A stretch of DNA of 64,000 nucleotides, from positions 1 through 64,000 of the forward strand of contig JAJPIR010000358.1 of the NCBI GenBank assembly GCA_021324675.1, given 5' to 3'. Positions 1 through 63,412 of this stretch are shown one piece after another. Below the pieces are notes generated by a model. The model made no database searches. It was not told where the DNA came from and saw only the letters and a program-made list of their open reading frames with translations. A program made the position numbers and the translations under genes. This DNA is from Actinomycetota bacterium (GTDB lineage Bacteria > Actinomycetota > Actinomycetes > Mycobacteriales > Pseudonocardiaceae). The first letter of the stretch is position 1, and each line of letters opens with the position of its first letter.

Positions 1-567
1 CTAGAGACGAATAACACTGGCCACGACTTTTTATCGTCGGAGCTGTCGTTGGGCAGCCACAAAATTGGTTGACGTTCGTCGACAGCGAAAAGATCTACCG
101 CAACCTCGTAGTATCGCAGCTGGAAGTTCATTGCCGCCCTTGCCGCCGAGATGACCAGGTTGATCGCCACACGAATTACCGAGCCCAGCTTCAACCTGGA
201 TCTGCGATCACACGGACCTGAAACCAGACATACTGGATTACGACATCATCTTCAAGGGCACTCCAGGAACAGGGCGGTCACGGCTATTCGATGCCGACCG
301 AGGCTCGATCTGGCGGCCAGACCCATCCGACTTTCTTGGTCATTTACCAGGTACAGACGCACGGGACTGTCTACCCCAAACGGGACGGATTGCACGTCCG
401 GGCAGCCATGGCAAGGCTCCACGTCCCGGGCCGACCCTCCCAAGATCTCTGTTCTATATGCCAACAGGTGGTTGGCGCGGTAAAATATCTTCCTCGTGTA
501 CGGCTAGCAGCAGTCTGTAATGGCTCTCGCTGGCCCGGTGGAGTCCAACGGAGGATTTCGAAGTATT
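1..567. other. No confident gene; upstream of the methyltransferase
   Basis: Several overlapping short open frames exist on both strands, none with a recognisable domain, good start signal or consistent high-GC third-position use. One plus-strand frame without an early start codon runs from about 248 to a TAA near 520. It may be the 3' remnant of a gene entering from the left. I cannot assign it. Confidence 0.4.
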
Positions 568-1353
568 ATGAGCATAATCGAGAAAATCAATTCACAGAGC
601 ATTACTCAAGTCGACTTCGAAATCCGGCTTCCCGAAGTAGGTCATGATCTTGACCAAGACGAGGAGTGGTGCGAGATCGTGACGCGAAAGCGCATTCGCT
701 TCCACGATTATCGTGCAATTTACGGCATCCCCGGCTTATATGAGGAACTCTTCTACGACAGGCTCAAATGTGTGTCACCACGCATGATCCGAACTCAGCT
801 GGCTCAGGTGTTGACCGAACGAGGGACCGAGCCGGCCAAACTTCGGGTCCTCGATGTCGGGGCTGGTAACGGGATCGTCGGTGAGGAACTCCGTGCACTC
901 GGTGCTGGAGCAGTCCTCGGCGTCGACATCATCGAAGAGGCAGCTACCGCAGCCCAGCGCGACCGACCTGGAGTCTATGACCGCTACCTCGTCGCCGACC
1001 TCACTGATCTGGCCCCCGACGAGCGGGCCACGCTCGTCGAAGCTGACCTCAACACCCTGACGACAGTGGCCGCATTGGGCTTCGATGACGTGCCCCCGCA
1101 TGCTTTCGCGACCGCCTACAACATCATTTCCACCCCTGGTCTTGCGGCATTCACGATCAAGGAAGACTTCGTCACCTCGCGTGACGCGAGCGGCTTCAGC
1201 GAGTTAATCCGCCGGATGTTCGCTGAAGGGGTCATCTGTCCCTTGGCCAGGCAGCGCTACCGGCACCGCCTCTCGGTACAGGGCGAGCCGCTGTACTACG
1301 TCGCGTTCGTCGCGGAGAAGATCGGAGACATCCCCCAAGACTGGCTCGACTGA
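568..1353 (+). CDS. Class I SAM-dependent methyltransferase
   Basis: Predicted cytosolic methyltransferase of 261 aa. Motif I (VLDVGAGNGIVG) lies at about residues 94-105 and the acidic residue expected to bind the SAM ribose (VLGVD) at about residue 120, a typical Rossmann methyltransferase layout. The last third carries the variable substrate region, so the acceptor is not predictable. The start at 568 is preferred over the upstream in-frame ATG at 520 because a GGAGG lies about 14 nt before it; the extra 16 residues look non-coding. A nitrilase-family gene follows about 200 bp downstream on the same strand and an AsnB-type amidotransferase converges, which suggests a small amide-modifying set. 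Family call is firm, substrate unknown. Confidence 0.82.
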   Translation: MSIIEKINSQSITQVDFEIRLPEVGHDLDQDEEWCEIVTRKRIRFHDYRAIYGIPGLYEELFYDRLKCVSPRMIRTQLAQVLTERGTEPAKLRVLDVGAGNGIVGEELRALGAGAVLGVDIIEEAATAAQRDRPGVYDRYLVADLTDLAPDERATLVEADLNTLTTVAALGFDDVPPHAFATAYNIISTPGLAAFTIKEDFVTSRDASGFSELIRRMFAEGVICPLARQRYRHRLSVQGEPLYYVAFVAEKIGDIPQDWLD

Positions 1354-46734: not shown

Positions 46735-47290
46735 CTCGCCCCCCTCGGCGTGCAGACCCTGGCCACCCAGTTCTGGGCCTACCAAAGCGAGGTCGCTTAC
46801 GGAACCGCCGCCCTCTACGGCTGGTCATCATCGCCCTCGCCGCAGTACCCGGCACCTTTCTCGGGCTCTGGTTCGACCGGGAATGCCATACCCGTAGCCT
46901 GGCGCCGGCACGCCGGGACCGTAACAATCGGTGGGCAAGTGGTCGACGACGGACATCGCACGGTCCGCACTCAACACCGCGACGTGGGCTACGTACCCCA
47001 GGAAGGCGCGCTGTTCCCCCACCTCACCGTGAAACGGAATATCGGCTTCGGGATGCTGCGGTGAGACCGGCACACCGTGCAGCATCTCGTCGACCTCGTC
47101 GCCCGCGGCCTTGAACGGCGCTATTCCCACCAACTGCCCAGCAATCAACAGCAACGAGTCGCACTTGTCCGGGCCCTCGCCATCCGCTCCAAGGTCATCC
47201 TCCTCGACGAACCATTCAGTTCCCTCGACGCATCCCTGCGCGACACCGTGCGCCGAGCCGTCAGCCGCGTGCTTCACAAACTTCGGCAAG
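46735..47290 (+). pseudogene. Iron-type ABC transporter (permease end plus ATPase) remnants
   Basis: Pieces in different frames: a permease C-terminus (LAPLGVQTLATQFWAYQSE, then LVIIALAAVPGTFLGLWFDR after a shift), an ATPase Q-loop piece (DVGYVPQEGALFPHLTV), and a signature/Walker B piece (QQQRVALVRALAIRSKVIL then LDEPFSSLDASLRD). The signature LSGGQ is degenerate (LPSNQ) and Walker A is missing. This was a ferric-ion FbpBC-type system, now decayed. Confidence 0.7.
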
Positions 47291-47903
47291 GCCAAAATTT
47301 TGCCCGCCGACGTTCAGGCCGACCGTGCCCATTGTGTACTCGGTGCCATTACCGTCCACAACAACAAGTCTCCAGTGCGAGTGGCGTGGCTGGGTCGGCG
47401 GCTGTTTGGCTAGGGGTTTGACCTGATCAGCGTGTGCTTTTGCTGCTGCCGTTGGCCATCACTCGGCGGTGGCTGTGGTTGCGGCGTTCGTCGCGATCGG
47501 TTTTCCATGTCCAGCCCGGGATGGTCTTCAAAACAGCGCGTTGCGGGCAGGAAGAGCGCCGGCGACGTGGGCGGCGCACTGGGCAGCGGACCAGGCGCCG
47601 ATGCGAAGGCGGTCGATGGGCGGTATCGCCGACGGGCCGCCGCGTTGCCTCTGCGCGACTACGCCTTGACCGGCCACGCACCCTCAACGCCCCATCCCCA
47701 GATACCCCGCAGCCGCGCAAACCTCTTTGACTTCCTCTAACAACGACTCAAAGAATCACCAGCGAGCCTTGACTGCGTTGCCACGAACACCAAAAAAGCC
47801 GCGCACGTGCATATGCAGCGGAAAAATACCGTTCGTCATGTTTCGTTGACAACTGGCCGTATAGCCAGCTAATATGGCCGGCCCCACAACCCCAAAAGGA
47901 GAC
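47291..47903. other. 613-bp stretch without a supported gene
   Basis: Arg/Pro-rich overlapping frames only; none resembles a family. Confidence 0.4.
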
Positions 47904-48300
47904 ATGTCAGATTCGCGCGCGGAAACACCGCCCACGAAGTCTGGCGACTAATTCGATGAGTAATCCCAGATCAGCCGAAAAGACGGCCGCAGTTGCCGCC
48001 GTGCTGGCTAAACTCGCTATTCGCCCCGGAGAACGGGTGCTCATCATGCTGCCGGACGGTTCCGGCTTCGCCGAGGCATTCGCCGGCACCATCAAATATG
48101 GAGCGGTGCCACTACCAGTTAATCCATTACTCTTCGCCCATGACATTCTGACAGCCGCCGCCGAGTCGGGTGCGCGACTACTGCTGGCTTCAGCGGATCA
48201 AATTCAAACTCTCGCCGATATGGGTGCGGAGCCACCGGTCCTGATCGACGGACCCCAGAGGCCATGGGCAGCGGCGCTGCCCTTGTGCTCGTTAAGTAAA
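47904..48300 (+). pseudogene. Acyl/aryl-CoA ligase N-terminal remnant
   Basis: An AAAGGAGAC ribosome site precedes ATG 47904, but that frame stops after 15 codons. A second frame from ATG 47956 reads LAIRPGERVLIMLPDGSGFA, then GAVPLPVNPLL and SGARLLLASADQIQ, the N-terminal part of AMP-forming ligases of the benzoate-CoA-ligase type. Similarity ends near 48290, before the ATP-binding motif. The rest is gone, and IS110-type sequence follows. Confidence 0.68.
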
Positions 48301-48499
48301 ACGGTGCTCCCATCAAGACTGAAGAACCGCGCGAGCAACCACCCCGACACAAGAGCGATCTGGCGCACCGGATTCCGAATCGCAACCCTAGCTCTGATAC
48401 CAGACCAAGCAGCGTGTCCGACACGGCCTGCAGGCCCACCAATCGTCCGCATGCTACCCGACTAAAGCCAAGGACTCTTACCGTACATGCCTCGCACCG

Positions 48500-52044: not shown

Positions 52045-54450
52045 ATGCTGGCTCGCCGTGATCGGCGCTGGACCGCGTGGGCTGCGGCACTATGCATGCT
52101 GGCATTAGTGGGCGGTGCAGCGTGGTTGATGTTGATCTGGTACCGCCATGGCGCTGTGGACGCAGATCCCCGGGCGTCGGTGTTAGGTTTCTTGCTCGCG
52201 GTTGCCGTCGCTGCTGTGGGGTTGGGGGGATGGATACGCCGGCAGCGTGGTGCAGCAGGGATGCCGGTAACTGCTGATCAGGCCGGACGATCTGCGGCCA
52301 CGTTGGCTGAGATGGTGGCCGAGCAGTGGGCACGGGAGGCTCTGGCTCGTTCGCTGGGCAATGCGGAGCCAATGCCGGTGCGCTGGCGGCTGTCGCCGAC
52401 CATGTCGGGTACTCCGGTGATGGATCATCCTGAGGTGATCGCTACGGCCGGATTGTCTTTCACGGTCAGTTCCGAGCGTATCAGTGAGGTTGTGGCGGCG
52501 TTTCGTGGGTTGGATCGCCGCCGTTTGGTGATTACTGGTGGGGCCGGGACTGGAAAAACCACGTTGGCGGTACAGCTGTTATTGGAGCTGCTGGCCCATC
52601 CCCGGCGCGGTGAACCGGTGCCTGTGTTGTTCTCTCTGGTCGGTTGGGATCCACGGAAGCAGCCACGACTACAGGACTGGCTCGCCGCTCGGCTGGAGCG
52701 CGATTATCCAGCGCTGCGGGGTTTCGGAGAGGATACTGCGCGAGCCTTGGTGGAGCGAGGGAAAATTCTGCCGATTCTTGACGGCCTTGACGAATTGCCT
52801 GTCACGCTGCGAGCGGACATTGTTACCGCGCTTAATGACGCTGTGCTTCCGGGGGGCGGTGGGCTGATCCTGACTAGCCGCCGCGCGGAATTCGCCGAGG
52901 CAGTGACTGATGCGGGGGATGTGCTGACCGCGGCCGCTGTCATCGCCCCACTGGCCCTGACCCGTATCGAGGCTGTCAGCTACCTTCGTAAACTTCTTCC
53001 TCCCGACCCTGGTACGACGTGGTCAACCGTGCTGAGCCAGCTGGAGACGGGTGAGGCGGCGGACCTTGCGGCTGTCACGGCGAGCCCACTCGGGTTATGG
53101 CTGGTTCGCACCGTGTACGTCGATGGCCACCGAGACCCCACCCCGTTGATCGAAAAGGCTCACCCCGATCGATCCACACGCCTTACTCTGAAAGCGCACC
53201 TGCTCGATCAGCTCATTCCCGCCGTCTTGGCCAGTCGACCACCGGCAGCACACTGTCATCCAAGCGTGAGAACTGACCTGCCGCTGCGACCACGCCACAG
53301 GTATAGGCCTCACGATGTGCGAAAATGGCTCACTACCCTTGCTCTTGAACTTCGGGCCGCTGAGACCAGGGACTGGTTGTGGTGGCATCTCGCCCGTCAT
53401 AATTTCCCCACCGTCAGCAGCGCACTCGCAGCAAAACTGGCAGTTGGATCAATTGTCGGTCTGGCATTCGGACTAGCGGGCAGGCAAACGACCCGGCTGG
53501 TGAGTGAAGTGGTGTACGGAGTGGCGGGAGGGCTGGTGGGCGGACTGACTTTCGGGCTGGTGGTTGGGCTCGTAGTCGGACTGGCGGTTGCACTGGCGCT
53601 CAGGCTAACTGCTGAACCGATGCACACTGAACTGCGGCCAGGGGGACGAGTCCGTGACCTGGAGCGCAGTCTGGCGTTCGCGCTGGCAAGTGGATTGGCG
53701 TTCGGACTGTCGTTCGAAATAGAGGAAAACTTGCCTGGAGGGCTGCTAATCGGGCTATCTGGGCTAGCGGTTGGACTGGCGTTCAGGCTGACTGGTGAAC
53801 CGGCGCGCACTGACCTGCGGTTACGAGGACGAGTACCCGAGGTACTGCGCAGTCTACGGTTCGCGTTGGGATTTGGGCTCGCGTTCGGGTTGGCGTTTGG
53901 GCTGCCGTTAAGCCTGGTGGGCTTGTTGAAGTCCGGGCCGCTGGGCGGGCTGGTATACGGATTGGCATTCGGATTGGCTTTCGGACCAGCGGGCGGGCTA
54001 ACATTCGGACTGATCAACTTCGGAGCCAGCCGGAGCGTTGCACCGGGAATAAGTTCTCCCGCTGAAAGTCAGCACGGAGACAGACGACTCACAGTTCTTG
54101 TCACTGGTGCGGCTGGATTGGCCTTCGGGCTGGCGTTCGGATTTCCAATTGGCCTTGCATGCGTGTTGGTCGTGGGGCCGGCATTCGGGTTGGCGTTCGG
54201 CTTGGTGTTCGGGCCGGCAGGCGGGCTGGCCTTCGGGTTGGCGTTTGGTCTGGTAAGCCAGGCGTGGCCTGCTTTCCTTGCCGCGTCAGGGTGGCTGGCG
54301 ATACGCCGTCGCTTCCCGTGGCGGTTGATGACCTTTCTCGACGACGCCCACCGGCTTGGGTTGCTGCGGGTGGTCGGACCGGCTTACCAATTTCGCCATG
54401 CCGAGTTGCAGGATCATTTGGCCCCGCTCCCAGCCGTACGACCTAAGTGA
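52045..54450 (+). CDS. Membrane NACHT-family STAND NTPase with Gly-Leu repeats
   Basis: An 801-aa protein. Residues about 10-33 and 45-63 are two membrane helices. The NACHT NTPase follows: Walker [10 protein letters not shown] with Lys171, sensor region, and Walker [12 protein letters not shown] (Asp246, Asp249, Glu250), which is the NACHT DGLDE signature, then [11 protein letters not shown] helical part (about 300-450) leads to a striking C-terminal half (about 465-740) of glycine-spaced hydrophobic repeats ([29 protein letters not shown]) predicted to lie in the membrane, and a short soluble end (residues 755-801). Start ATG 52045 has GGGAGAG upstream. Related bacterial NACHT proteins act in phage defence; this one is a candidate. 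Confidence 0.88.
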
Positions 54451-54666: not shown

Positions 54667-54752
54667 TGCCCGTCGCGACTGGCGTAGGTGGGCTACCACC
54701 GGGGAGCGCAGCTTCGGAGCGTCGACCGCCTGGGTGCTCCCGACAGAGGGAG
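54667..54752 (+). ncRNA. ZTP (ZMP/pfl) riboswitch with SD-sequestering hairpin
   Basis: The leader of folD contains the conserved elements of the pfl/ZTP class in order: GUCGCGACUGGCG (54672-54684), a short stem with ACCACCGGGGAGCG (54695-54708), a UUCG-capped stem (54709-54721), and CCGCCUGGGU (54727-54736) that makes the ligand-dependent pseudoknot. The class senses ZTP/ZMP, a sign of 10-formyl-THF shortage. Downstream, CTCCC (54737-54741) can pair with GGGAG (54748-54752), which is the Shine-Dalgarno of folD 5 nt before its ATG. This points to translational control. It is a by-eye motif match without a covariance-model run. Confidence 0.82.
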
Positions 54753-54757
54753 TTGCC

Positions 54758-55621
54758 ATGAGCGCGACTGTGATGGACGGCACCGCCGTCGCCAACGAGT
54801 TACTCCGTGACACCGGTCGGCGAGCCGCCGAGTTCGAGCGCGCACACGGACGCAAGGCCACCTTGGCCACCGTGCTCGTCGGAGACAACCCCGCCTCGCA
54901 CACTTATGTGCGCATGAAGACCCATCGATGCCGAAGGGCTGGCCTGGCCTCGCAGCGCCACGACCTTGCCTCCGAGGCCACCACAGCGCAGGTCGTCGAC
55001 CGCGTCCAGCAGCTATCCACTGACCCTGTCGTCGACGGCATCCTGGTCCAGCACCCACTGCCGGCATCCATTGATCAACGGCGCGTCTTCGAGGCGATCA
55101 CCCCCGCCAAGGACGTCGACGGCGTCACCTCGGCATCTTTCGCCGCGATGGCCTTCGGCCAGCCCGGCTTCGCCTCCTGCACTCCCGCCGGCATCATGCA
55201 TCTACTCGACACCTACAACGTCCCGCTCGCTGGGCGCCACACCGTGGTCGTCGGGCGCAGCCCCATCCTGGGCAAACCGCTCGGCATGTTGCTACTCGCC
55301 CGCGATACCACGTTGACCTACTGCCACTCCAAAACCACCGATCTGCCGGACGTGGTCGCCCGAGCCGACATCCTCATCGCCGCCGTCGGCCGACCCGAAC
55401 TCATCCGCGGCGAGTGGATCAAGCCTGGTGCCGTCGTCATCGATGCGGGCTACAACCCGGGCAACATCGGCGATGTCGACTACGACACAGCAAGCACCCG
55501 CGCAAGCCTCATCACACCCGTCCCCGGCGGCGTCGGCCCAATGACCATCGCCGTCCTACTAGCCCAAACACTCGACGCCGCCCACGCCGCAGCAAATAAG
55601 GTCAGACTTCCTAGCAACTAA
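54758..55621 (+). CDS. folD: Bifunctional methylene-THF dehydrogenase/methenyl-THF cyclohydrolase
   Basis: A 287-aa enzyme that interconverts 5,10-methylene-, 5,10-methenyl- and 10-formyl-THF. Catalytic Tyr50 and Lys54 (SHTYVRMK) and VDGILVQHPLP, KDVDGVTSASF, VVVGRSPILGKPLGMLL and TPVPGGVGPMTIAVLL are all canonical. The start MSATVMDG at 54758 is set by GGGAG 5 nt upstream. It is preceded by a ZTP riboswitch, so it is expected to be induced when 10-formyl-THF falls. No purH or other purine gene is adjacent; a core folD is likely elsewhere, so this may be a folate-stress-induced extra copy. Confidence 0.94.
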   Translation: MSATVMDGTAVANELLRDTGRRAAEFERAHGRKATLATVLVGDNPASHTYVRMKTHRCRRAGLASQRHDLASEATTAQVVDRVQQLSTDPVVDGILVQHPLPASIDQRRVFEAITPAKDVDGVTSASFAAMAFGQPGFASCTPAGIMHLLDTYNVPLAGRHTVVVGRSPILGKPLGMLLLARDTTLTYCHSKTTDLPDVVARADILIAAVGRPELIRGEWIKPGAVVIDAGYNPGNIGDVDYDTASTRASLITPVPGGVGPMTIAVLLAQTLDAAHAAANKVRLPSN

Positions 55622-56369
55622 CCGGTGCCGAAATACTTGACCAAACGCATCGGACAGACGTGGACCTCTTGAGGTCCTTGCGACGCTCTCACTTACGTAG
55701 CCACCAAACCCCGTGGGCTGGCCAGTTCCGCACGATGAGGAGGAAATCTGGTCGTCATTTGATCACGCCATGCTGAAACAACGTGCACGTCTCTCCAACG
55801 TCAACGGCTGGGTCGGCGTGCTACGGCGGTTGTCGGCTCCGTACTTGCGATCCTGAGTAGCGCCGCTCTGCTTGACAGCATCAGTAAAGGTTAAAGTCAT
55901 TGGGTCTGAGCCATTCACTTACAGCTGTGTCGGCAAGAGTGACGCGAATTGTTGATTTTCGTAGTAGCCAGAAGAATCTCGAAGATCCCGCAGTAGTTGC
56001 GTGGTAGTAGATCAATAACGGTCCCGGAAGGGAGACGCCACCAGCGGCGGGGCAGCCGGTGAGGGTGGCCCTAGCGGCTCACTTAGCGTCGGATCCTGTA
56101 TCGGTGGGCGCAGCGTGTCAGTGACGATCACATCCGGCGGGGTCTTGGAGTGCAGGTATTCCGGCGCAGTTCGGACATAGCCATCCTTACTGGGCCAGGC
56201 GGGGACGTTGCGTCGCGCCGTGACAGGGAGCCGCGGTAGACGAATTCCCCTACTGTGCGAACTTGCACATTATTCTGCGTTGCTTGAGGTAAGCGCGGGT
56301 TTACGGTGGGATGGTATCCGCCGCCGAGGTGGCTCGCCCTGTCGGGCGGGTCGGAAATCAGGACCGTTG
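55622..56369. other. 748-bp region with a possible 3' gene fragment
   Basis: The minus strand from about 56215 to TGA at 56012 reads coherently (VPAWPSKDGYVRTAPEYLHS, then a Pro-rich tail ending ASPFRDRY) but has no start, so it is probably the end of a truncated gene. The rest shows nothing. Confidence 0.4.
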
Positions 56370-57671
56370 ATGGCCAGCTCCCGTATGCCGACCGCCGAGA
56401 AGTCCGCCCTGTCTCCCATGCGGGATGACGCGGTGTTGCAGCTGCCGCTGCCGCCGCAGCTCTTGCAGCGCGGCCGCTGCCCGTTTGATCCGCCTGAGGC
56501 GCTTGACCGGATGCGAGCGCAGTCGGCGGTGAGCCCGGTGATGCTGCGCAATGGCCGCACCGCCTGGGTGGTCACTGGATTCGATCAGGCGCGGGCGGTG
56601 CTGTCGGATCCGCGCTTTAGCGCCGACCGGTTGCGCCACGGGTCACTGTTGAGCGACGTCTCCGATGAGCTGCGCAAGCAGCTGCTCGATGAGCGCTTGC
56701 GGGCCGGCTCGTTTATCTCGATGGATCCTCCCGAGCACAGCCGCTACCGCAAACTGGTTACGGGGGCGTTCACGGTGCGGCGGATGCGCCAGCTCACTCC
56801 GCGCATCGCGGAGATCGTGACCGAGCACATCGATGCGATGCTGGCCACCGGCACCTCGGCTGACCTGGTGTCAGCATTCGCGCTGCCGGTTCCCTCGCTG
56901 GTGATCTGTGAGCTGCTCGGCGTGCCCTACACCGCGCGCCGCGAGTTCCAGCACCGCAGCGCGATGATTCTGCGCCTAGATACGCCGATCGAGGATTTCC
57001 TTCGCCTGCGCCAACAACTACGGCAATTCATGCAGCACCTGGTCGCCCACAAGCGCTCCGAGCCTGGTGATGACCTGCTATCCGAGCTTGTCCACAGCGA
57101 CGCCGAGCCCGCGCTGACCGACGACGAGCTGGTCAGCATCGCCAACTTGCTGCTGATTGCCGGGCACGAGACCACCGCCAATATGCTCGCTCTTGGCATC
57201 TTTGCGCTGTTGGAGCACCCCGACCAGCTCCACACCTTGCGGGCCGACCCCTCGCTGATCAATGGCGCGGTCGAAGAACTGCTGCGCTACCTGTCTATTG
57301 TGCACATCGGTCTTACCCGCGTGGCGCTCGAGCCGGTGACGATCAGTGGCCACGAGATCCCCGCGGGTGCGACAGTGCTGATCTCCGTGCCGGAGACCAA
57401 CCGCGATCCCCAGCACTGGAGCAATCCTGGATGCCTGGACCTGACCCGACCACGCCGGCCGCATCTGGCCTTTGGCCACGGCGTGCACCAGTGCCTGGGC
57501 CAACAGCTCGCCCGGGTGGAAATGACCGTCGGTTTCACCCAGCTGCTCCAGCGACTGCCCGGCCTGCGCCTGGCGATACCGTCACAAGACGTCCCGCTGC
57601 GCAGCGACATGCTCATCTTCGGAGTCCACGCCCTGCCGGTGCGCTGGGACGATCTGAGGCTTCCGCGATGA
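56370..57671 (+). CDS. Cytochrome P450
   Basis: A 433-aa soluble bacterial P450. The oxygen-activating I-helix motif AGHETT (264-269, Thr268/269), the ExxR pair (EELLRY), and the haem loop FGHGVHQCLGQQLA with Cys375 are all present. MDPPEHSRYRKLV fits the CYP105/107-type bacterial group. ATG 56370 with AGGA about 8 nt upstream is chosen; a 54-residue extension to 56208 is rejected. Its TGA overlaps the ATG of a 3Fe-4S ferredoxin gene, giving it a dedicated redox partner; a reductase is not present. Substrate unknown. Confidence 0.93.
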   Translation: MASSRMPTAEKSALSPMRDDAVLQLPLPPQLLQRGRCPFDPPEALDRMRAQSAVSPVMLRNGRTAWVVTGFDQARAVLSDPRFSADRLRHGSLLSDVSDELRKQLLDERLRAGSFISMDPPEHSRYRKLVTGAFTVRRMRQLTPRIAEIVTEHIDAMLATGTSADLVSAFALPVPSLVICELLGVPYTARREFQHRSAMILRLDTPIEDFLRLRQQLRQFMQHLVAHKRSEPGDDLLSELVHSDAEPALTDDELVSIANLLLIAGHETTANMLALGIFALLEHPDQLHTLRADPSLINGAVEELLRYLSIVHIGLTRVALEPVTISGHEIPAGATVLISVPETNRDPQHWSNPGCLDLTRPRRPHLAFGHGVHQCLGQQLARVEMTVGFTQLLQRLPGLRLAIPSQDVPLRSDMLIFGVHALPVRWDDLRLPR

Positions 57672-57868
57672 ACATTCACGTCGACCCCACGGTCTGCATT
57701 GGCGCCGGGCACTGCGCGCTGCGGGCACCTGCGGTGTTTGACCAAAGCCAACACGACGGGACGGTGATCGTGCTCGACACCCAGCCCGATACCGAGCACC
57801 AGGCCGATGTCCAAGCGGCAGTCGAGCTGTGCCCCTCAGGGGCGATCTGGGTCAGTTTCGCGCCATAG
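57668..57868 (+). CDS. 3Fe-4S ferredoxin, P450 partner
   Basis: A 66-aa ferredoxin of the kind paired with actinobacterial P450s. Cys10, Cys16 and Cys55 are the cluster ligands; the position that would be a fourth Cys is Ala13, so a 3Fe-4S cluster is expected (CIGAGHC, ELCPSGAI). It overlaps the P450 gene by 4 nt (ATGA). Confidence 0.93.
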   Translation: MNIHVDPTVCIGAGHCALRAPAVFDQSQHDGTVIVLDTQPDTEHQADVQAAVELCPSGAIWVSFAP

Positions 57869-58017: not shown

Positions 58018-58190
58018 CGGACCGTGTTGTTCCGGCTGCTGTACCTGATCTGTTGCGCGGTGTTCGGCTGGCTGCGCCGCCCACCGGTCAGCGACGAACT
58101 GCGCGACCTGGCGCTGCGCCTGGCACAGGAGAATCCGTCTTGGGGGCACCGCCGCCTCCAGGGTGAACTCCTCGGCTCGGACACCGCCTG
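58018..58190 (+). mobile_element. IS transposase fragment (integrase-core type)
   Basis: The frame reads [17 protein letters not shown], then [20 protein letters not shown] and RRLQGELLG. This matches pieces of actinobacterial integrase-core transposases (the RxxENPxWGYRRIQGEL block) joined by an internal deletion. No inverted repeats or other parts are seen. Confidence 0.6.
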
Positions 58191-58531
58191 GGGCAACTAC
58201 GATCCGCCGAAATCCTGGCCGCTGCGGCCTCGGGCCGGCACCACGGCGAGCAGATACCAGCTGGCGAACCTTTTCCGCGCTATGCGACTTGGTCAATTCG
58301 CGTGCTGCTGTGTAAGCGTTGTGCCCACGGGGGCCTGTGGGAAACGACTTTTGCCTGGCGTTGATCAACAACTGTGTTGATCACACTTACCGAGTGGAAC
58401 TGTTTCAATCCGGCCGCAGCCGCATTCATCCCCGAACTTGCGCACTCCGGGTCAGCGGGAGCGGCCGTTGTTTTTAACGGATCGCGTGGTGGCCAGACAG
58501 TACAAGGACAACGGGTGGTTGGAGGGATGAG

Positions 58532-61285: not shown

Positions 61286-62383
61286 GGGGCCAGGCTCCTT
61301 AATCAACGGCTCACGGCAACCGTCCACCATCCTGGATGAGATCCCCAACCGGTCAAAGACCCTGAGAGCGTGGCCACCAACAGCGATCGTTGCTCACCCC
61401 GATGCCAGCATGCGCCCGATCACGGCCCCTCTCGGGCGCAGTATTTGAGTCGTCAGTTTGCGGGCGGAGCCCGAACTTCTCGCTGGGCTTTCACACGGCC
61501 CGGCCGGACGCCCCTTCATTAGGATCCGCCCCACCAGTATCTGCGGTGGCTCTACACCCAGGGACCAGGTCCAGTCCAGCGCTCCTGGCCGCGGGGCCCC
61601 GCGCCCTGTCAGTGATCACGGTCGATGCCATGTCCTACGCAGCCGGGTCGCTGACGTACTAGGCGCTCAACAGGCATGTCGCCACGACGCCGTCGCCGCG
61701 GCGTTGCCCAAGCTGATTCGGGACCTGCACACCACCGTCGCTGCGAGGCGAGACACCGCAAACATGCTTAAGGTTGGTGGCGCTGCTGCACGTCCAGATC
61801 ACCCAGGCGTGGTTGCGTGACATCGGCGCCCTCGTGGACTCCCGTTTGATCGCTGCGGGTGGTGTTTCCCGCCGCGGCGCCTTACGTCGCACTTCGCGGA
61901 CGCTGAGTTGCGCTAGCCGGCTAACGGTCTGGCCCAGATCGGCTACCTTCGGCGCGGCTCGAACTTGCAGCGGTCAGTTCGGCGATCCCCTTGCGTAGCT
62001 TGATTCCGTGGTCGCGCTCGCAGTGTCTTTGAGGATGAAGCCGCCGGCGCCGTTTGGGCTGGTCCGTTCATTCTGGGGCCGTGTGGGTTACATCATCCTT
62101 GTGTGTTTCACTCGCCGACGGCTACAAAGATGTACATAACGATTATTCCCCTCATGAAGAAGCTTCCAATTGCGGACCTCACCTCCGGCCCCTCTCTAAG
62201 AGCGGAAGGATTGGGCTAACCTGGAGCGGTGAGCGTCCACCACCGTGCCAGGGTGTAGTTGATCATAGGCCTCGGACACTGCGCTAGACTTGGCCGGACA
62301 GTCCGACCTTGATTGTTCGCTATTTGACTACGAGGACAGGTATTCATGCGTCGGGTGCTCGGCGGGAGACGATGAGGAATGGA
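61286..62383. other. 1.1-kb region without an intact gene
   Basis: A plus-strand frame ending near 61660 contains PRALSVITVDAMSYAAGSLT, similar to an MFS transporter helix, and may be a remnant. No other support. The DNA becomes AT-richer from about 62100 towards the PI-PLC-like gene. Confidence 0.4.
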
Positions 62384-63412
62384 ATGATGGACGAGCCCGT
62401 TACTCACACTTCTTGGATGCTTTCCGTTCCCGATGATACCTCAGTGATGGCTCTGAGTATTCCAGGGACGCATAATTCTTGCTGCATTCATGGGGCACTG
62501 GGGGTTGGAAAGACCCAGGATCTAGATCTGCCCGATCAGTTAAATGCGGGGATACGTTTCCTTGACATCAGGTTTACGCATTATCAGGATAACCTTTGCG
62601 TGCACCACGACGTTATTTGCACCGAAAGAAGCTATGTGAATATTCTGACCACTTGTTTCAACTTCCTTAGGCGACACCCTTCTGAAACTATTTTGATGTC
62701 AGTGGATCACGAGAGTCGCTTCGATGATACGCTCGGCAAGTTTGCCCCTTCTCAGATTTTCTGCAGATTACCCCTAGCGGGCACTGCAAGTCGCGGCAAA
62801 AACACTCGCTCGTTTGAAGACACGTTTAACGAAAAAACATGGGAGTGTATTGAGGATATACCACTATTCTACAATTTCACCGCTACTCCTCCTGGCGGCA
62901 ATTCTGTGGCGAGCAGCCCTGCGCTCACATCCAAAACAACGTTGGGAGACGTTCGCGGTAAGATCGTCTTGTTGCGCAGGTTCGAAGGAAGTCAAGAGGT
63001 TGGATTCGATCTTTCTTACTGGCCAGAAGACCAGTGTTTCAGAAGTCCGGCGCCTCCATTCTACGATGTCGAAGATCGCTATCGGAGGCCTGGAAAGGAT
63101 AACAAATTCAACTATGTTGTCGACCACATAGAAAAAGCCAGATGCGGCGATCCAAATGAGTTATATATTACGTTTTCCAGTGCCGTTGGATTGACGGCAC
63201 GCGGTTACTCAAATAAATTGAACCTGCGCCTCAATAACTATCTTGCCAAATCCTCACCTGGCCGCATTGGAATTATCGCAATGGACTACTACCAGGAACC
63301 CAAGGAATTGGTCTCGAACGTGATCAAAGCGAATGTCAAACGGAAGCAACCGGCACTTCAGACAGAACCGCCACGTCAAGCGACCGGTAGGACCACGCAA
63401 CACCAGTTATAG
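62384..63412 (+). CDS. PI-PLC X-domain (phosphatidylinositol phospholipase C-like) protein
   Basis: A 342-aa protein of the bacterial PI-PLC family. Catalytic His30 (IPGTHNS) and His75 (VHHDV) with GIRFLDIR and LRRHPSETILMSVDHES are the conserved first-half blocks; the LGDVRGKIVLLRRF strand and a terminal IGIIAMDYY complete the TIM-barrel half. No signal peptide is seen, unlike most secreted bacterial PI-PLCs. ATG 62384 (or 62387) has AGGA 5 nt upstream. Base composition and codon use are clearly AT-richer than the window average, pointing to recent transfer. Mycobacteria make phosphatidylinositol and its mannosides, so these are possible substrates. Confidence 0.85.
   Translation: MMDEPVTHTSWMLSVPDDTSVMALSIPGTHNSCCIHGALGVGKTQDLDLPDQLNAGIRFLDIRFTHYQDNLCVHHDVICTERSYVNILTTCFNFLRRHPSETILMSVDHESRFDDTLGKFAPSQIFCRLPLAGTASRGKNTRSFEDTFNEKTWECIEDIPLFYNFTATPPGGNSVASSPALTSKTTLGDVRGKIVLLRRFEGSQEVGFDLSYWPEDQCFRSPAPPFYDVEDRYRRPGKDNKFNYVVDHIEKARCGDPNELYITFSSAVGLTARGYSNKLNLRLNNYLAKSSPGRIGIIAMDYYQEPKELVSNVIKANVKRKQPALQTEPPRQATGRTTQHQL

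Follow-up and report, generated by a model that had tools for sequence, protein, structure and literature searches.

A NACHT-type protein of an actinobacterium with a predicted winged-helix domain split by a glycine-rich membrane block

A 64,000-nucleotide stretch of DNA from an Actinomycetota bacterium of the Pseudonocardiaceae (contig JAJPIR010000358.1; hereafter the window) encodes a NACHT protein that carries a long, glycine-rich, hydrophobic repeat array towards its C-terminus. The locus raises the question of where in the NACHT switch this array sits, and whether it acts as an effector, a sensor or an anchor. The reading frame is intact, open and complete; the ATG at 52045 is preceded by a Shine-Dalgarno-like GGGAG ∼9 nt upstream, and an alternative start, TTG 52042, would give 802 residues. 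Residue numbers below are counted from TTG 52042 (K172 here is K171 of the original prediction). The features of the gene are as follows:

52045..54450 (+), whole gene, split-winged-helix NACHT protein, 801 aa from ATG 52045
52063..52254 (+), two N-terminal hydrophobic helices, aa 8-35 and 43-71 (by hydropathy; low pLDDT in the model)
52516..52995 (+), NACHT nucleotide-binding domain (NBD), aa 159-318 (PF05729)
52537..52560 (+), Walker A GGAGTGKT, aa 166-173 (K172 in 46/46 family members)
52768..52794 (+), Walker B region LPILDGLDE, aa 243-251 (D247 in 46/46, E251 in 43/46)
52879..52881 (+), putative sensor-1-like arginine R280 (44/46)
52996..53241 (+), helical domain 1 (HD1), aa 319-400, with conserved P349-L350 (P349 in 46/46; AlphaFold2 model)
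53308..53406 (+), predicted first half of the winged-helix domain (WHD), aa 423-455: helix 423-439, short strand, helix 447-453; WW447-448
53407..54264 (+), putative inserted membrane block with Gly-zipper repeats, aa 456-741 (repeat statistics, hydropathy and charge)
53797..53832 (+), conserved Arg-rich loop, aa 586-597 (P587 in 42/46)
54055..54087 (+), conserved Arg-rich loop, aa 672-682 (P673 in 42/46, R681 in 44/46)
54265..54423 (+), predicted second half of the WHD, aa 742-794: helix 760-771, hairpin 775-784, helix 787-793
54397..54399 (+), H786 of F-x-H-x-x-x-Q-D, the WHD histidine expected at ADP (42/46)

The first part of the protein was much as originally predicted. Two hydrophobic segments were recovered by hydropathy where two N-terminal membrane helices had been proposed, and the NACHT ATPase described as intact scored 30.5 bits against PF05729 (Pfam cut-off 26.7; aa 159-318), with both GGAGTGKT and DGLDE present. 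The Walker A lysine, the Walker B acidic residues, the sensor-1 arginine and the HD1 proline are all in place, as expected of the NACHT clade of STAND NTPases; R280 is taken from its position to be sensor-1-like. The NACHT profile matched at E ≤ 1 in 43 of the 46 family members described below. Comparison with the defence families catalogued in PADLOC returned only weak matches, at the level of the P-loop (best 3.3e-4). The N-terminal two-helix slot is proposed to be an output or an anchor.

The glycine-repeat array had been put forward as able to sit in the membrane, and repeat statistics and hydropathy agreed. A GLxxG-repeat block of ∼285 residues stands far above chance: residues 449-742 hold 53 glycines in 294 positions and 28 GxxxG motifs, compared with a single GxxxG in the remainder of the protein. 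Glycine pairs at a lag of 4 numbered 28 in this region versus 9.3±2.6 in 2000 shuffles (maximum 20), and the maximum was likewise 20 when shuffling was restricted to 20-residue pieces. Eight hydrophobic segments were called in the block and two at the N-terminus by a crude hydropathy count (own script), which also called one segment in the soluble core and therefore over-calls a little. Arg-rich loops (∼523–545, 578–603 and 660–685) alternate with Arg-poor loops along the block. The positive-inside rule, by which Arg-rich loops are read as cytosolic, suggests therefore that the block may form ∼8 segments arranged as four hairpins with their bases facing the cytosol. Both the putative placement in the membrane and this topology are drawn from hydropathy and charge, and AlphaFold2 confidence across the block was low (pLDDT ∼36–73). 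Conserved residues within the block also include G612 (44/46) and G620 (42/46). A recent origin of the array by slippage was considered and ruled out, since the DNA copies are diverged (TRF rows with 60–82% matches and one 28-bp row with 93%) and the position of the block is conserved across the family. The block may be a sensor of some kind or could be a mere anchor.

The sequence that follows the block was placed using structure models. In the AlphaFold2 model of the window protein (11 sequences, mean pLDDT 65.7, pTM 0.60), the C-terminus forms helix 760-771, a hairpin (775-778/781-784) and helix 787-793 at pLDDT ∼77–81. Foldseek ranked NLRC4 first for this model (E 1.1e-4), and VIA-align matched it to NLRP3 (7vtp; Z 20.4, rmsd 4.8, 319 aligned, model 83..802 on chain 135..556), NLRC4 (4kxf; Z 20.0, rmsd 5.1, 343 aligned, model 76..802 on 93..467) and NOD2 (5irm; Z 18.6, rmsd 5.0, 345 aligned). 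A second, independent model, of a distant protein from a Saccharothrix MAG (L016; 532 aa), has helix 495-504, hairpin 508-517 and helix 520-528, and was matched to NLRP3 (7alv; Z 13.2, rmsd 4.7, 266 aligned, 50..532 on 134..537). Both models thus superpose on closed NLRs up to the end of the WHD, the window protein on NLRP3, NLRC4 and NOD2. Alignment of several open or active NLR structures (8ej4, 8swf, 6b5b and 3jbl) to the window model ends at aa 391-399, which fits a closed arrangement; there are counter-cases, however, in that the open structure 8fw2 aligns through to residue 802 (rmsd 10.3), and 8ej4 and 8swf align to the end of the L016 model (rmsd 11.5 and 16.2).

The C-terminal motif of the window protein, F784-R-H786-AEL-Q790-D791-H-L-A794, is the NLR WHD motif with E changed to D. 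According to the accessible part of PMC7583971, NLR WHDs carry FxHxxxQEhxA, the histidine of which contacts ADP, and NLRC4 H443L is constitutively active. By analogy, H786 is expected to be the ADP-contacting histidine of the WHD; it is absent in 4 of the 46 members, and the CHAT-bearing member L110 has an Asn at this position. The modelled fold and the NLR motif together identify the C-terminal part as the closing half of the WHD, and the membrane block is therefore predicted to be inserted within this domain, at the helix2-helix3 turn. The WHD with its FxHxxxQE-type histidine is thus found as in an NLR-type module, by the predicted fold of two models and by H786 in 42 of 46 members, but it is not contiguous in sequence, its halves lying 114–475 aa apart in 46/46. 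In an NLR proper the WHD is followed by a C-terminal repeat sensor such as an LRR, whereas the window protein stops 8 residues past A794. Sequence profiles alone were also tried as a link between the WHD and NLRs and gave nothing significant: the excised-block WHD profile A6 recovered no NLR from the PDB (best E 0.62, unrelated), and the profile A2 paired the motif with YSFIHLSFQQFLTA of NLRP2 at a non-significant −3.1 bits.

The generality of the split layout was assessed in an alignment of 46 proteins, comprising the window protein, 37 from relatives' genomes (of 40 region loci; L070, L071 and L083, with a broken frame or partial, were left out) and 8 from named actinobacterial genomes (of 12 loci; L009, L014, L018 and L019 were partial). 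The layout is common to all 46, and the search for homologues with the same repeat domain, proposed originally as a check, accordingly found the block in every aligned member. The distance from Walker A to WW447-448 is 247–291 aa in 45 members (205 in L016) and the second WHD half measures 51–53 aa in all of them, while the block ranges from 114 to 475 aa (median 246) with 3–12 hydrophobic segments. Mean pairwise identity is 0.54 in the second WHD half, the most conserved region of the family, compared with 0.42 in both the NBD and the first WHD half and 0.27 in the block; GxxxG exceeds twice its expectation in 38/46. The suggestion that the short soluble C-terminus is a sensor is therefore not upheld, as this part is by the models the closing half of the WHD, with a fixed length and the strongest conservation.

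In a class-wide sample, P0001 matched 41 of 296 genomes (18 of 115 genera). Homologues are carried by 22 of 61 relatives, so that the distribution is patchy and the gene is not core. Within the genus, 9 of the 11 genomes match, the window's own included. A WHD profile with the block excised matched in 43 of the 296 class genomes (≤12 candidates scored per genome); among the matches listed, each covers one half, and no match extends from before position 99 to beyond position 135 of the 165. The same scan served to look for an uninterrupted ancestor, and none was seen in the 296 genomes at ≤12 candidates scored in each.

The slot in front of the NACHT domain is variable, being occupied by the two membrane helices (2TM), TIR, CHAT, Xre-HTH or SARP modules. 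An Xre-type HTH is N-terminal in 7/46 members, a SARP (Trans_reg_C plus BTAD) in L010, a TIR_2 domain in L074 (3.5e-10) and, by record annotation, a CHAT domain in a Nostoc plasmid protein, directly upstream of which lies a trypco2 gene. In a tree built from the core with the block removed, the HTH rows require one change and the 33 rows labelled 2TM require six, the latter label being assigned by exclusion, in some rows without individual inspection of the N-terminus. Every one of the 46 aligned members retains the block, those with HTH, SARP or TIR among them, and so does a CHAT-NACHT protein. The swapping of N-terminal modules in front of a retained block points to the N-terminus as the output and speaks against the block as the effector, contrary to the original idea of a repeat domain released on sensing. 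HTH and SARP members could be plain regulators.

Further modules are appended to some members. A WD40 propeller follows the WHD in L059, the usual place of a sensor, and a TPR-like domain was recognized by eye in the same position at the C-terminus of L073. The C-terminal 400 residues of L081 contain, by eye, a membrane helix and a periplasmic-binding-protein-like domain after the WHD, which is a possible external sensor. Two proteins encoded on the + strand, L115 and L116, were read by eye as two NACHT-membrane block-WHD units in tandem within one ORF, with a TIR-like N-terminus and a degraded Walker A in the second unit.

Cyanobacterial plasmid proteins, which at first gave NACHT-only matches, were considered as a control lacking the insertion and had to be rejected as such because they have the same split layout. 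In this sequence reading, the proteins from Tolypothrix, Nostoc and Crinalium plasmids share the C-terminal YRF[IL]HKLLQDH and all have hydrophobic segments, with GLIFGLIFG repeats in two of the three. On a Crinalium plasmid (L111:2702-5892, +), an EAD1 gene, the split-WHD NACHT gene and an EAD1 plus CHAT-like gene stand in a row, the CHAT-like assignment being made by eye. As read from sequence, the arrangement thus occurs in two phyla, Actinobacteria and Cyanobacteria, and this suggests that membrane events may be the direct trigger of such switches. A Nostoc member matched 37 plasmid records, mostly cyanobacterial, and the window protein matched 36. No copy of the window protein was found in 50,697 phage records and none was confirmed in viral contigs.

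The window gene itself stands alone, without the EAD1 or trypco2 partners of cyanobacterial members. Downstream of it lies a FolD-like methylenetetrahydrofolate dehydrogenase (54734-55618, +), one of three matches in the genome. This flanking gene has matches in 10/11 genomes of the genus and the flanking NAD(P)-binding gene in 7/11, many of them as diverged homologues; in five sister stretches, none of the window's ORFs for other genes matched beside these hits, one of which lies near a contig end, and the locus is therefore not syntenic. The statement that the gene lies next to decayed mobile DNA held in part. Partial profile matches identify remnants of an ABC-transporter ATPase (47077-47421) and of an AMP-binding enzyme (47956-48465), which are signs of local gene decay, but a mobile element was not demonstrated, the transposase-like scrap at 58024-58377 having been seen by eye and having no Pfam match. 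Elsewhere in the window are an apparently intact pair formed by a cytochrome P450 and an overlapping ferredoxin ORF (56208-57868, +) and a PI-PLC X-domain protein (62309-63412, +; 25.9 bits).

Neighbours of family members were compared with arbitrary regions using PADLOC. The 135 neighbours (of 167 called) from 37 relatives' loci, with those of the 8 named-genome loci left out, included mad2 6 times, mad3 3 times, JetC twice, GajB not at all and a few singletons, versus mad2 twice, JetC not at all, GajB once and several singletons among 135 control genes (of 148 called) from 16 regions. In this small sample there was no clear enrichment of defence genes near family members. The original prediction had named core, conserved homologues outside defence islands, giving no phage phenotype, as the outcome that would count against it; the homologues are not core, while their neighbours give no clear sign of defence islands. 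PCMT-like methyltransferases recur (6/135 neighbours), with a cluster of seven proteins at six loci, and FtsX/ABC neighbours are also recurrent. The loci with an adjoining PCMT-like gene are L050, L065, L077, L080, L081 and L082. A partial JetC (Wadjet MukB-like; L053:1694-4633, +; 1.2e-148) lies beside one family member.

The switch of NLRs and of Apaf-1 has its lock in the winged-helix domain. We lean, by a modest degree of confidence, towards reading the window protein as a membrane-integral STAND/NACHT switch, the WHD of which is split by a Gly-zipper bundle that couples the lock to the membrane. Since the bundle is inserted within the WHD, the half with the presumed ADP-locking histidine would be reached only through the membrane. 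At rest, with ADP bound, the bundle would clamp the WHD in a closed state. If the membrane were disturbed, or if a partner bound to the bundle or to its conserved Arg-rich loops, the two WHD halves would be pulled out of register and H786 freed from ADP, so that the bundle would be the sensor, or the anchor, that draws the WHD off its nucleotide. Exchange for ATP and assembly of a ring at the membrane could follow, clustering the N-terminal modules: in the window protein the 2TM hairpin, perhaps as a pore or platform, and in relatives TIR, CHAT protease or DNA-binding modules. The likely use would be a response to stress or infection, up to cell suicide, and an antiphage role would be plausible. 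We hold only tentatively, with rather less than even expectation, the broader proposal that NLR-like switches of two phyla have their lock opened directly by the state of the membrane (voltage, tension, or perforation by phage or toxin) and so fire interchangeable outputs.

The strongest rival, which we nevertheless think doubtful, is that the block is a membrane anchor only, placing an NLR-like switch near the envelope while a partner protein or the NACHT/HD1 region does the sensing. The weak conservation and strongly variable length of the block (114–475 aa) suit an anchor, as do the two relatives in which a further domain stands at the C-terminus, where a sensor usually lies (WD40 in L059 and, by eye, TPR-like in L073). 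An anchor need not, however, sit in the ADP-locking domain, yet no uninterrupted relative was seen among the 43 matching genomes of the 296, and the conserved loops, together with G612 and G620, lie within the block. The protein might otherwise regulate metabolism or envelope upkeep as a one-protein system tethered to the membrane, with no part in defence, the HTH and SARP members being typical and the 2TM members derived. The HTH in 7/46 and the SARP of L010 point this way, as do the recurrent PCMT-like and FtsX/ABC neighbours and the absence of clear defence enrichment among the neighbours; TIR, CHAT, EAD1 and trypco2 partners, patchy distribution, carriage on plasmids and a gene context not shared with sister genomes speak against it, and we regard it as unlikely.

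Distinctly unlikely, in our estimation, is that the block is itself the effector, which the NACHT switch would set free as a pore or a membrane-disrupting bundle, with the C-terminal part as sensor. Gly-zipper helices do pack together and are able to make pores, toxins of the glycine-zipper type feature in published titles and abstracts, and the block is large, Gly-rich and variable. Against this, the C-terminal part is by the models the end of the WHD and not a sensor, and the block is kept alongside a separate HTH, SARP, TIR or CHAT module. Both of its ends are also joined to the switch, so that it could not be released whole without cutting the chain.

The split-WHD membrane layout is a new form of STAND/NACHT NTPase; no published description of a NACHT or NLR-type switch with a membrane block in its WHD was found in a search covering mainly open-access papers. 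It bears on the triggering of bacterial STAND proteins that lack repeat sensors, and a lock threaded through the membrane gives a concrete, testable proposal in which the state of the membrane is the ligand. If true, this would link switches of the innate-immunity type to envelope sensing and place the same front end before outputs of at least five kinds.

In animal NLRs, the NBD-HD1-WHD unit is closed by ADP. The window protein resembles NLRC4, NLRP3 and NOD2 in its NBD-HD1-WHD fold, as modelled, in its Walker motifs and in the FxHxxxQE motif of the WHD; it differs in that the WHD of the family is broken by the putative membrane block, and 40/46 members have ≤31 residues after the WHD and therefore no HD2-LRR sensor. 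The bNACHT antiphage proteins, of which bNACHT25 belongs to clade 6 and bNACHT02 and bNACHT12 to clade 14, share with the family a central NACHT and an N-terminal effector slot, whereas they are described with NCH1 or SNaCT C-terminal domains and with no mention of a membrane insertion in the accessible portion of PMC12169576. EAD and trypco2 are parts of conflict systems with STAND NTPases (PMC7159879, accessible sections). Some cyanobacterial members adjoin EAD1 or trypco2 genes or carry CHAT, as in such systems, although a membrane block inside the WHD does not figure in those sections (PMC7159879) and the window gene stands by itself. Metacaspase-NACHT-WD40 proteins likewise combine a NACHT with effector and WD40 modules, and some metacaspases have membrane helices, but in the part of PMC3501461 that was available these helices flank the domains and leave the switch uninterrupted.
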